This document shows, in pieces, positions 9,234-13,624 of a DNA stretch of 64,000 bases. Origin of the DNA: Candidatus Auribacter fodinae (GTDB lineage Bacteria > Auribacterota > Auribacteria > Auribacterales > Auribacteraceae); NCBI GenBank assembly GCA_003599815.1, contig QZJZ01000094.1, positions 1-64,000 on the forward strand, in the 5' to 3' direction. Under the pieces are notes generated by a model, which was given only the letters and a program-made list of their open reading frames with translations, was not told the origin of the DNA and searched no databases. Positions within the stretch are counted from its first letter, which is position 1, and each line of letters begins with the position of its first letter. A program made the position numbers and the translations under genes.

Positions 9234-9911
9234 TTACTCTTTCCGTACCGGGATAATCAAAATCTGTCCCGGACGTATGATGTCCGAAATACTTTCCATC
9301 TTATTGGCGTTGGCGATGTCTTCCATAGTTACCCCGTAATTTTGAGCGATAATCCACAGATTCTCACCGCTTTTTACGGAATGGCGGACATATTCGGATG
9401 CATCACCAGATGATTCCATTACATCAACACCAGACGACGTTGAACTCTGCTCTACGGTGGGTTGAGGAGCGGCTTCACCGTAGACATCTTTTTCCACAGA
9501 CCTGATTCGTTTAATAATACGCTGGTTTTCTTTGAGAACTTCATCAAGAAGAACTTTAAGGCGTTTGGTCGTCTGAGCGTCCATATCATCAAGTCTCTTC
9601 GCAAGCTGATTGTTAGCCGCCTGAAGTTCGCTTAGCTGAATATTCAGGGTTTTAAGCTCATCAAGTTTTGAATATATGTACTTGTTGTTTTCGTTGACAT
9701 TATCGTTCATTTTGATGAGCAGATTACTGATTTCTTCGAGCCGGTTTTCTGTAGTAAGAGTTCTGTCCTGAATACGGTTCATCTCAGAGTTGATGTTTTG
9801 TTCCTGCTGGATCATATCTTCACGCAGGTCTTGCGTACAACCAGTCAGCAATATGGGGGCAAAAAGTCCGCATATTAATGTATAAACGACTGATGGAACT
9901 ATTGTTTTCAA
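9234..9911 (-). CDS. LysM-domain coiled-coil lipoprotein at the end of the tol-pal operon
   Basis: A signal peptide ends in the lipobox LTGC. A long region rich in Asn, Gln, Leu and Lys (about residues 30-140) looks like a coiled coil, then a Ser-rich linker leads to a C-terminal LysM domain starting SVKSGENLWIIAQNYGVT, which should bind peptidoglycan. Three consecutive TTG codons (9917, 9914, 9911) could start it; AAGGAGG is best spaced for the one at 9911. The gene follows pal, the position that YbgF/CpoB holds in proteobacterial tol-pal operons. Its coiled coil resembles CpoB's N-terminal trimerising region, but LysM replaces the TPRs. It converges with the permease gene without a spacer. 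Confidence 0.88.
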   Translation of the reverse strand: MKTIVPSVVYTLICGLFAPILLTGCTQDLREDMIQQEQNINSEMNRIQDRTLTTENRLEEISNLLIKMNDNVNENNKYIYSKLDELKTLNIQLSELQAANNQLAKRLDDMDAQTTKRLKVLLDEVLKENQRIIKRIRSVEKDVYGEAAPQPTVEQSSTSSGVDVMESSGDASEYVRHSVKSGENLWIIAQNYGVTMEDIANANKMESISDIIRPGQILIIPVRKE

Positions 9912-9932
9912 CAACAAGCCTCCTTATTTTGC

Positions 9933-10439
9933 TTACTGGGCAAGTTTGAATTCAGCGCGGCGGTTTTCAGCCCAGGCGATTTCAGTATGCTGTGTGTTGC
10001 GCGGCTGTTCTTCACCATAACTGATGGTGAATAAACGGTCGGCAGGCACGCCTTGTTCATTGAGATACCGGCGTACGCTCAATGCTCTGCGTTCACCGAG
10101 CGCTAAGTTGTACTGTTCTGTACCACGTTCATCACAATGCCCTTCAATCCTGACCAATACTTTCGGGTGTGTTTTCATCCATTCTGCAACCTGATTCAGG
10201 CCAGCCTGCATATCCGCGCGAACATCAGATTTATCATAATCAAACAGTATCGGCTGGAAAATGTATTTGAATTCTTCTGGCGGATCAATGAAAGTGCCGG
10301 CAGGTATAGCGCTCAACGGTATATCGCCTTTAACTTTACCTTTGTCCCTGCATTCCGGTGACAGCATGCAGCACCCATTGAGCATTGTTACAACTACTAG
10401 AACTGATGACGCGGTGATGATTGCATTTGATAGACGCAT
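9933..10439 (-). CDS. pal: peptidoglycan-associated lipoprotein Pal
   Basis: Pal tethers the outer membrane to peptidoglycan and pairs with TolB. The ATG at 10439 (MRLSNAIITASS) is chosen because GGAGGAAT lies just upstream; the track's extra 39 residues are an artefact. The signal peptide ends at the lipobox LNGC. The OmpA-like domain is clear: FDYDKSDVRADM, IEGHCDERGTEQYNLALGERRA, and a final ENRRAEFKL, which includes the Asp and Arg that hold meso-diaminopimelate. The mature domain has normal size (168 residues total). It lies 34 bases downstream of tolB. Confidence 0.96.
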   Translation of the reverse strand: MRLSNAIITASSVLVVVTMLNGCCMLSPECRDKGKVKGDIPLSAIPAGTFIDPPEEFKYIFQPILFDYDKSDVRADMQAGLNQVAEWMKTHPKVLVRIEGHCDERGTEQYNLALGERRALSVRRYLNEQGVPADRLFTISYGEEQPRNTQHTEIAWAENRRAEFKLAQ

Positions 10440-10473
10440 GTATTCCTCCTTTTTTTTGCTTGTTATGTTAATG

Positions 10474-11787
10474 TTACTGTAATGAAGGTCCCCAATCCGG
10501 CAAACTGGAATTATTACTATCCGTCGTAACCCTGACGGGTTTTTCTTCACGAACATCCATAAAATATATATCCGATCGGTAGTTTTGTGTCAATGTATAT
10601 GATACATGAATACCATCCGGAGCCCATGTTGGGTGGTCTTCTGATTCCATAGATGTGGTTAAACGGCGGAAGAAACCGCTTGATGCGTCGATAATGCATA
10701 GTTCTGAGTTGCGCCCGTACAAAGAAGAATAAACAATTATATTAGAACCCTTGATGGGTGACCAGTCTGGAGAAGCATTATAATTACCCTGAAAGGTGAT
10801 TCGTTTTGGTGTGCCGCCCCGGTAATCGACAACATAAATCTGAGGTGTTCCACTGCGATCCGATACAAATGCCAGTGTATTGCTGTCAGGCGCCCATGTT
10901 GGAGATGTATCTACTGCCGGGCTGAATGTTACCCGCTGAATAACATTTCCCGAAAAATCAATGACATATATTTCCGGATTTCCGTTAAAACTGAGGGTCA
11001 GGGCTATCTTTGTGCCGTCAGGGGAGACGTCAGGTACTGAGTTTAGCCCGGGCCGTTTTGAGATTATCTGCATACTTCTTGTTCGAAAATTCTGCAGGTA
11101 GATAAAAGGATAGTTTTCAAAATAGCTGGAATAGATAATTCCCTCGCCATTTGGAAGCCAGTTTGGGTCAAGATTAAGCGAAGTATTGGATGTAACTTGA
11201 CGGACGTTATGCCCGTCGTAGTCCATCATGAAAATGTTTTTAGCCTTTCCATTTTGTTGTACAAAAGCGATCTGCGTGGTGGTAATGGATGGGCGGCCTC
11301 CAGAAACTTTTTCTATGATTTTAGCTGTTGCCTTATGCATCAAAGCCCGGGTTTCAGAGATTGGCCCGTTGACGACTACTGAAGTAAACTCACTGCGTGT
11401 CGCCATGTCGTAACAGAAAAGTTCTATGGCAAGTTCGGTGCCGCTCATGGTATAAAGCCCTTTTATAATCATTTCCGTACCGTAATCAAGCCAGAAATCG
11501 TAATCAGCGGATTTATAATTTTTCCCTTTGTCGAGAGCGGAGTCAGGGAGAGGTTCCTGCGGCCATAACTCGAAATAGCCGGCATGCTTCAAATCAAATT
11601 CCGCAACGGAATACAATTCGCGGGAAGCAACCACATTATTTGTCTCACTGAAAAAGGGCAATATGGTCACGCGAATTTTACGGTCTATTTTTTTCTCGAT
11701 AGTAATCTCTATTTCTTTCGCCGGAACCAAACTGTTTTCGCATGCCGCGGCTAAGAAAAGTATCAACAGAAGAAATGTTTTTTTCAT
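10474..11787 (-). CDS. tolB: Tol-Pal system beta-propeller protein TolB
   Basis: The 437-residue product has an N-terminal signal sequence, an alpha/beta N-terminal domain (DRKIRVTILPFFSETNNV onward, to about residue 160) and a C-terminal beta-propeller with repeated blades such as TLAFVSDRSGTPQIYVVD and IALTLSFNGNPEIYVIDF. TolB is periplasmic and binds Pal and the TolA C-terminus. The signal region FLAAAC contains a cysteine that could be lipid-modified, although TolB is normally soluble; the lipobox is poor. AAAGGT is 8 bases before the ATG. It follows the TolA C-terminal frame by 15 bases. Confidence 0.95.
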   Translation of the reverse strand: MKKTFLLLILFLAAACENSLVPAKEIEITIEKKIDRKIRVTILPFFSETNNVVASRELYSVAEFDLKHAGYFELWPQEPLPDSALDKGKNYKSADYDFWLDYGTEMIIKGLYTMSGTELAIELFCYDMATRSEFTSVVVNGPISETRALMHKATAKIIEKVSGGRPSITTTQIAFVQQNGKAKNIFMMDYDGHNVRQVTSNTSLNLDPNWLPNGEGIIYSSYFENYPFIYLQNFRTRSMQIISKRPGLNSVPDVSPDGTKIALTLSFNGNPEIYVIDFSGNVIQRVTFSPAVDTSPTWAPDSNTLAFVSDRSGTPQIYVVDYRGGTPKRITFQGNYNASPDWSPIKGSNIIVYSSLYGRNSELCIIDASSGFFRRLTTSMESEDHPTWAPDGIHVSYTLTQNYRSDIYFMDVREEKPVRVTTDSNNSSLPDWGPSLQ

Positions 11788-11802: not shown

Positions 11803-12536
11803 CTATTGTTGAGTATCAAAATTAATAATAATATCCAGCGACTCTTCGTGCAGGTCTGATGGAAAAGGAGGAAAAGGTTTCGAGTTATCAATCGCGTCAA
11901 TGATCGATTTTTTTAATAAAACGTTATCCGTATCACTTACGAATTCCATCTCCGACACCGTACCTGTATTCAGGATTCTTATTTTAATAGTTACGATGTC
12001 AATTTGTTCCTGTCCCCGAAGCGTACCGGGTATAGCCCATTGAGCATAAACACGTTTTTTTACCAACCCTGCATAATATAAGAGAACCGTTTGCGGCGCT
12101 TGGGTTGATGTTTTTTTTATTTCTTGAGGTACAGGCTCTTCAGGACGGGTTACTTTTTTTTTTCCAGATCATCCCATTGCTTTAATATATTATTTTCCAA
12201 ATTGGAATTAAGAGGTTCAGGCGGCGGCCGTTTAATTACCTTTTGTTCCACAAGAGGTTTTTCCGGCTCCGGTTCCTTTTCAGCCGCCTTTTCCTGTGTT
12301 TGCGGCTCTTTCTTGTCTGCCGGTTTTTCCTGTTCCTGAGGCTGTGGTGTGAATAGTTCTACTTCCTGAATTTTAATCGGTTCGCTTTTTTTCTGTTTCC
12401 ATAAAGGAAGCATGATAACCACAGCAGTGATAATAATTATGTGACAGCTTATAGATATGACCAGAAATTTTCTTTGTTTAAAAAGCACTAGCAGTCGTTG
12501 TTTAAAAAGTAATAATAATGAATCTAATTTGCTCAT
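11803..12536 (-). CDS. tolA: TolA/TonB-like protein in two frames joined at a putative -1 slippery site
   Basis: The first frame (12536-12150, 128 residues) has a short cytoplasmic start, one membrane helix (FLVISISCHIIIITAVVIML) and a Pro/Glu/Lys-rich linker, then stops at TAA. The second frame (11803 up to the same point) encodes a TonB/TolA C-terminal domain, including YYAGLVKKRVYAQW and RILNTGTVSEMEFV. The two frames differ by -1 and meet at an A10 tract whose last two codons before the stop form the slippery heptamer A AAA AAG. No stop interrupts the second frame from that tract, and the domain begins before its first possible start codon (TTG at 12066). A joined product would have about 244 residues. 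Either programmed -1 frameshifting or transcript slippage, or a homopolymer sequencing error, explains this. The ATG overlaps the tolR stop by 4 bases. Confidence 0.85.
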
Positions 12537-12949
12537 TTTACCCGTTCCACACTGGTTGCAAGCCCCAGTTTTGTTATGCCTGCCTTCTGAATAGTATCCA
12601 GAACTTTAACTATAAATTCGTAAGCGAGCCCTTTGTCCGCCCTGAGAACTACTGGTAAATTAGGCACGCTTTCACGCAAAGATATCAATCGCTCTTCAAG
12701 TTGCGGTAATGTAACCGCGGTATTACCTATAAAAATTTTTTTATCTTCAGACAGGCTGATAGTTACTGATTCCTCATGCGCCATTGTCCGCGCTGAGGTT
12801 TCCGGTAATTTTACGGTAATACCTTGTTCAATAACAGGCGCTATCAGAATAAATATAATGAGCATCACCATGGTCACATCTACCAAGGGGGTAATGTTTA
12901 TATCATTTAACGCCTGAGATTTATAGAATTCGTCCCGTTGAGACAACAT
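12533..12949 (-). CDS. tolR: ExbD/TolR family biopolymer transport protein
   Basis: The protein has 138 residues with one N-terminal membrane helix containing the proton-path aspartate (INITPLVDVTMVMLIIFIL) and a periplasmic domain with EESVTISLSEDKKIFIGN and VVLRADKGLAYEFIVKVLD, all typical of ExbD/TolR. With TolQ it forms the proton-driven motor that energises TolA. It starts directly after the tolQ stop and overlaps tolA by 4 bases. Confidence 0.95.
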   Translation of the reverse strand: MLSQRDEFYKSQALNDINITPLVDVTMVMLIIFILIAPVIEQGITVKLPETSARTMAHEESVTISLSEDKKIFIGNTAVTLPQLEERLISLRESVPNLPVVLRADKGLAYEFIVKVLDTIQKAGITKLGLATSVERVK

Positions 12950-13624
12950 TTATTCGTTGTGCCCTCTTTCAACCAGTGAAAGAAATTCTGTAGCGAAATT
13001 TTCCATATCAATCATGAGGTTCCTGATGGAATTCAACAGATAATTATACCCGACACCTGACGGTATAGCTACAAATAAACCTATAACGGTTGTTATCAGC
13101 GCTTCTGATATACCCGGCGCCACAGCATCGATACTGGCTGAACCCATTCGCCCCATATCGTAAAAAGCTATTAGCAAGCCGTATACCGTTCCGAGCAACC
13201 CCAATAGCGGACTGATGTTGGCCGATGTCGCCAGAATAATCATATTTCTCTCTAAAGTTTGAGCCTTTTGGGACATTATACGTTTCAAAGAAAGTTCCAG
13301 ATCGTTTTGCTGTGATTTCGTCAGAGATGTATATCGTGTGTCTGAAGAGGTGATTTTTCGAAGCTCTTTTATTCCGGTAGAAAATACCGCACTTAATAAA
13401 GAGGCATTTGTTTGGTTACTGTTTTGAAACGCTTTTTCCAGAGAGTTCACTGAACCGCGAAAGAAATCGAGAAACTCGCGTCCTTCACGATTTAGTTTTC
13501 TGAAAAAAATGAGTTTTTCAATAATAACCGACCAAGCGGTTATCGAGAGTATCAGCAGAATAATCATGATACCCTGTCCAATAGGGCCTGAACTTGTAAA
13601 TGAAGTGATTAGTGGATGGCTCAT
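12950..13624 (-). CDS. tolQ: MotA/TolQ/ExbB proton channel family protein
   Basis: The 224-residue protein shows the TolQ/ExbB plan: an N-terminal helix (IMIILLILSITAWSVIIEKL), a cytoplasmic loop, and two C-terminal helices with LLGLLGTVYGLLIAFYDM and ALITTVIGLFVAIPSGVGYN. It is the multimeric stator that surrounds TolR. First gene of the tolQRAB-pal-LysM cluster. The 132-base gap to fusA upstream contains a 14-bp inverted repeat, so the cluster could have its own promoter or be attenuated from fusA read-through. Confidence 0.95.
   Translation of the reverse strand: MSHPLITSFTSSGPIGQGIMIILLILSITAWSVIIEKLIFFRKLNREGREFLDFFRGSVNSLEKAFQNSNQTNASLLSAVFSTGIKELRKITSSDTRYTSLTKSQQNDLELSLKRIMSQKAQTLERNMIILATSANISPLLGLLGTVYGLLIAFYDMGRMGSASIDAVAPGISEALITTVIGLFVAIPSGVGYNYLLNSIRNLMIDMENFATEFLSLVERGHNE

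Follow-up and report, generated by a model that had tools for sequence, protein, structure and literature searches.

A conserved A10 tract splits tolA in three genera of an uncultured bacterial class: a probable slippage-dependent gene

Working TolA combines, in one chain, an anchor that contacts TolQ/R and a C-terminal domain that contacts TolB/Pal. In the analysed window, the 64,000-nucleotide stretch of contig QZJZ01000094.1 from Candidatus Auribacter fodinae (GC ~43%), these two ends are encoded in different reading frames, which raises the question of how a functional protein is made and what purpose, if any, the interruption serves. Because TolA needs both ends in one chain, the tol operon would supply working TolA only by slippage.

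The break lies at a run of ten adenines on the minus strand (12154–12163; T10 on the plus strand), where direct reading gives CTG GAA AAA AAA AAG TAA. The 0-frame product, 128 amino acids encoded at 12150–12536 on the minus strand, consists of an inner-membrane anchor and a charged linker, with a hydrophobic segment near its N-terminus by inspection; 125 codons precede GAA AAA AAA AAG TAA, the stop codon occupying 12152–12150. The –1 frame is open throughout from its first codon, GTA at 12153–12151, to its stop at 11805–11803, and this part (11803–12153, minus strand) corresponds to TonB_2/TolA domain III, as judged from a Pfam TonB_2 match (profile positions 4–85 of 85, E 8e-12), NCBIfam TIGR02794 and an excess of third-codon-position differences against the two related genomes described below. 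TIGR02794 (tolA_full) is matched at model positions 1–75 by the 0-frame piece and at 279–361 of 362 by the –1 piece; neither score reaches the curated cut-off and the 0-frame match is weak, as expected for fragments. Since one piece matches the start of the model and the other its end, they represent the two ends of one TolA. The domain matches and the sequence itself thus bear out the initial annotation, in which the TolA frame was described as ending at the A10 tract with the C-terminal domain in the open –1 frame.

The surrounding genes, all on the minus strand, complete the expected architecture of anchor, linker and C-terminal TolA/TonB domain within a tolQRA–tolB–pal operon. Upstream are tolQ (MotA/TolQ/ExbB; 12950–13624; PF01618, E 7e-31) and the operon-mate tolR (ExbD/TolR; 12533–12949; PF02472, E 7e-30), whose stop codon is overlapped by the tolA start in the sequence ATGA (12533–12536). 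The tolB gene (10474–11787; TolB_N and PD40) starts 15 nt past the stop of the tolA –1-frame part and is followed by pal, encoding an OmpA-family lipoprotein (9933–10556; PF00691, E 2e-22). A gene for a LysM protein (9234–9917, minus strand) comes after pal, a position that in E. coli is occupied by the gene for the TPR protein CpoB.

Could the C-terminal domain be supplied in another way? A second, intact tolA in the same genome was ruled out by a genome-wide search with the –1-frame protein, which matched this single locus only. Two further TonB_2 proteins are encoded on contigs C16 and C21, and a TonB-like paralogue might stand in for TolA. Independent initiation of the C-terminal piece was considered and rejected, as the stretch leading from the tract to the domain contains no ATG, GTG or TTG in all three genomes compared. 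In the window, the first such codon after the tract is the TTG at 12066, which sits inside YYAGL, so that the conserved YYAGLVKK was correctly placed upstream of any in-frame start. A GTG in the –1 frame ahead of the tract is present in only one of the three genomes (G001).

The comparison comprised the genome of the analysed window (G000, 3.54 Mb) and both other available genomes of the class (G001 and G002), three in total and each from its own genus. In all three, the tolA tract sits at one and the same position, is exactly A10 in length and is followed by a C-terminus encoded in the –1 frame (site sequences: G000, CTGGAAAAAAAAAAGTAACC; G001, ATCGAAAAAAAAAACCTTCAG; G002, ATTGAAAAAAAAAACCTTCAA). 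Whether relatives would keep the slippery heptamer and the adjacent stop had been raised as a check on the locus. The break and the A10 are retained; the heptamer is A AAA AAG in G000 only and A AAA AAC in G001 and G002, where the 0-frame stop lies 13 nt past the tract. An uninterrupted tolA in related genomes, named as the finding that would speak against recoding, was not encountered within the class, both G001 and G002 being broken. Outside the class, TolA was examined by protein in 23 matches from the phylum, three of them cut by a contig end; the gene is continuous in all 20 usable matches, with frames of 226–462 amino acids.

Conservation of the break is accompanied by conservation of what follows it. 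The C-terminal parts of TolA share ~53% amino-acid identity between G000 and G001, 36% between G000 and G002, and 46% between G001 and G002. Between G000 and G001, differences in this part amount to 0.34, 0.24 and 0.52 at the three codon positions, the third being highest, which indicates that the –1 frame is read and selected. The third-position excess is seen in both halves of tolA and, as described next, in both halves of recF, indicating that the full-length products are selected. Judged by these substitution patterns, purifying selection acts on the frame that follows each tract.

The DNA-repair gene recF, which adjoins dnaN, has the same type of break. In G000, an A10 at C80:8141–8150 (L071) is associated with a –1 frame break; the N-terminal frame stops 24 nt past the tract. 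The RecF model TIGR00611, continuous in itself, is divided by the break, its positions 95–339 being matched (2e-64) by the C-terminal part, which lies in the –1 frame. G001 recF (C14:95352–95361, L067) contains the same A10 and the same frame break with a stop at equal distance, whereas G002 recF (L108) is continuous with an in-frame A9. Elsewhere in the phylum, 10 other members with a match have frames of 361–415 amino acids. Differences at the three codon positions of recF are 0.37, 0.30 and 0.60, again highest at the third position, and this pattern holds on either side of the break. The codon phase of the A10 is 1+3+3+3 in recF and 2+3+3+2 in tolA.

Long A tracts of this kind are uncommon in G000. 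All tracts of A9 or longer in this genome (67 sites), together with the listed ones in G001, were classified. G000 contains four A10 tracts, of which two are those in tolA and recF, a third is intergenic and the fourth is at the start of a gene; both A10 tracts inside genes are therefore frameshifted, each to –1, and tolA and recF account for the only interior frame breaks among tracts of A9 or longer. With A10 so scarce in 3.54 Mb and the tolA tract and frame break recurring in both relatives, the arrangement exceeds what chance would give. No out-of-frame interior A9 was found among the 30 A9 tracts checked in G000 frames of at least 150 amino acids, and about 12 of these are in frame with a clear coding signal on both sides. 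Four A9/T9 sites considered as frame breaks (L125, L205, L227 and L192) look like ordinary gene starts or overlaps. At another site, G000:C1:234–283 (L119), three in-frame A9 tracts spaced ~20 nt apart lie in a gene that has short coding repeats of the LKKKLEDV/VEDF type. G001 has the same two breaks and, in addition, two genes with an in-frame A10 and no frameshift (L064 and L077). Their intactness means that A10 by itself need not imply recoding; at the same time, the predicted slippage should give truncated side products from both genes, making them internal controls. G002 is richer in A tracts, and its breaks are in tolA and fliJ. The A10 break in G002 fliJ (C258:11098–11107, L191) has the opposite sense, requiring one A fewer or two more, and is private to that genome, fliJ being continuous in G000 (151 amino acids) and G001 (156 amino acids).

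Restoring a single frame takes either one additional A in the mRNA, yielding A11, or a –1 slip of the ribosome. Poly-A transcriptional slippage is known from C. rodentium tssM, Shigella mxiE and Thermus dnaX, and we consider it probable, on the sequence evidence, that tolA of this class is likewise a slippage-dependent gene, with A11 generated by RNA polymerase and both anchor-only and full-length TolA produced. In such a model, RNA polymerase would add one A on the A10 template in part of the transcripts. A11 would then be translated in a single frame (E-K-K-K-V at the junction in G000) to give full-length TolA, and the unslipped transcript would give the 128-amino-acid form, which keeps the anchor and linker and lacks the TolB/Pal-contacting C-terminal domain. 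Tract length would set the ratio of short to full-length TolA, and recF would rely on the same device in G000 and G001. A run of at least about 9 A/T at the break is a hallmark of slippage genes, and the run is A10 in tolA (three genomes) and recF (two); both frames are coding and conserved, as is the break itself. The initial annotation had offered a short anchor-only TolA together with full-length TolA as one outcome, and this is the outcome to be expected from a conserved, recoding-like break. We infer the slippage, its transcriptional nature, its efficiency and any role of the short TolA. Work on E. coli and Buchnera has identified insertion of one A as the transcription error that predominates in A/T runs, with single-A insertion in A runs climbing exponentially with run length (PMC5574713); one genome-wide survey in Buchnera did not detect any frame-restoring transcription error (PMC5574713).

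Several other explanations would account for the same break. Programmed –1 ribosomal frameshifting at A AAA AAG, A AAA AAC or A AAA AAA, of the dnaX or IS type, would also make full-length TolA and RecF, and the dnaX-type version had been proposed for this locus. The frame required is –1 at all five sites, all of which carry an in-frame A_AAA_AAN heptamer; in E. coli, A_AAA_AAG is tied to high frameshifting (PMC4066793). A10 always holds in-frame A AAA AAA, which makes a heptamer unavoidable and keeps a ribosomal slip on the A run conceivable. However, the last codon of the heptamer varies (AAG, AAC or AAA, with AAA in recF) while the length of the A10 does not. Six to seven As would suffice, yet A10 is kept though very rare in G000. 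No SD-like motif (GGAG, GAGG, AGGA, GGGG or AAGG) occurs within 30 nt upstream of any site, the downstream RNA is predicted to fold no more stably than its shuffled counterparts (z 0.25 to 1.05), and no Rfam family was matched. In addition, G000 encodes tRNA-Lys(CUU) on C93 (L259) besides tRNA-Lys(UUU) on C40 (L285), so that AAG has a competing CUU tRNA, which weakens the argument from tRNA-Lys(UUU) slipping on AAG in E. coli dnaX. Given the variable heptamer, the missing stimulators, this tRNA and the contrast between frameshifted genes with A10 and in-frame A9 tracts inside genes, all of which favor slippage of RNA polymerase, the dnaX-type proposal is probably wrong, and ribosomal frameshifting in general is an improbable source of the full-length proteins. 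Still less credible is phase variation, in which switching between A10 and A11 in the DNA would silence and reactivate tolA and recF: homopolymers are well known as contingency loci, but all five sampled tracts have equal length and the same off frame, both genes are housekeeping rather than surface-variable genes, and no other long intragenic A tract of G000 is out of frame. A one-base assembly or sequencing error in genes that are really intact, the second outcome initially considered for tolA, fits the tendency of long homopolymers to be misread on some platforms. The identical A10 and –1 frame in G001 and G002 argue decisively against it: the same state would have to have arisen in three separately assembled genera, and in recF in two, and the coding A9 tracts of the same assembly are in frame. 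We regard an error as close to negligible.

A further explanation shares the slippage mechanism with our preferred reading and differs only in purpose, namely that a near-neutral indel has been tolerated, with poly-A slippage leaking enough full-length product and the short product remaining idle, as has been proposed in Buchnera and Blochmannia. The two are not mutually exclusive, and tolerance is for that reason assigned a chance not far short of even. It is favored by recF, where the same device is associated with a short product of ~100 amino acids, containing the Walker-A end only, that is unlikely to work, and by the restriction of the fliJ break to G002. Because of this short product, recF is more likely to be a rescued or down-tuned gene, and the recF case leans towards tolerance; a use for both protein lengths is plausible in TolA and doubtful in RecF. 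Conversely, long A tracts mutate readily, and drift should often restore the frame, yet tolA stays broken in three genera and recF in two; a 3.5-Mb genome, with a window of ~43% GC, is also unlike that of a reduced AT-rich symbiont. The lasting out-of-frame state of an easily mutated tract leans towards selection. What might be selected can be suggested only tentatively, and we consider the following proposal possible though rather doubtful: the TolQRA motor would contain a fixed mix of anchor-only and full-length TolA set by slippage, RecF dosage would be set likewise, and the A tract would represent a general dosage device in an A10-poor, non-reduced genome. Short TolA would fill motors yet not reach the outer membrane. 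Since tolB begins so closely behind the –1 frame, its translation may also be coupled through slippage to full-length TolA.

The predicted slippage in tolA is reminiscent of tssM1 in the type VI secretion system (T6SS) of Citrobacter rodentium, which also encodes an inner-membrane envelope protein whose C-terminal domain is out of frame past a long A tract with a stop soon after, and in which slippage gives a short anchor-containing form and a full-length form, as proven experimentally for tssM1 and predicted for tolA (PMC4256274). In tssM1, an A11 tract supports 20–25% slippage, and both protein lengths as well as their ratio are required; the related tssM3 of Y. pseudotuberculosis slips towards the shorter form (PMC4256274). 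In contrast to tssM1, the tolA break affects another protein in another lineage and is kept in position and frame over three genera. Buchnera and Blochmannia also have core genes that are intact except for a single indel in an A/T run; some of these indels are conserved between species, and transcriptional slippage is considered to correct them (PMC3017870). Those genomes, however, are small and AT-rich, with more than 100 long A tracts in genes (PMC3017870), whereas G000 measures 3.5 Mb and has four A10 tracts, two of them frameshifted. In Thermus thermophilus dnaX (A9), RNA polymerase slippage on the A run results in two protein lengths, as predicted here, but there the full-length protein needs no frame change and it is the short form that slippage generates (PMC5009743), the reverse of the situation in tolA. 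E. coli dnaX and G000 tolA share the heptamer A AAA AAG and, in one frame, a stop close by. Unlike tolA of G000, E. coli dnaX possesses an SD element and a stem–loop, and in tolA it is the long rather than the short product that lies in the –1 frame, with a heptamer that is not conserved.

In open-licence papers, no relevant report of tolA frameshifting or slippage, or of recF slippage, was found. The present analysis adds tolA and recF to the few cellular genes with an apparent dependence on poly-A slippage, in the setting of a non-reduced genome from an uncultured class and with conservation across genera. Annotation pipelines will label such genes as pseudogenes or fragments. More generally, a natural mix of headless and full-length TolA would make the stoichiometry of TolA in the Tol–Pal motor testable.
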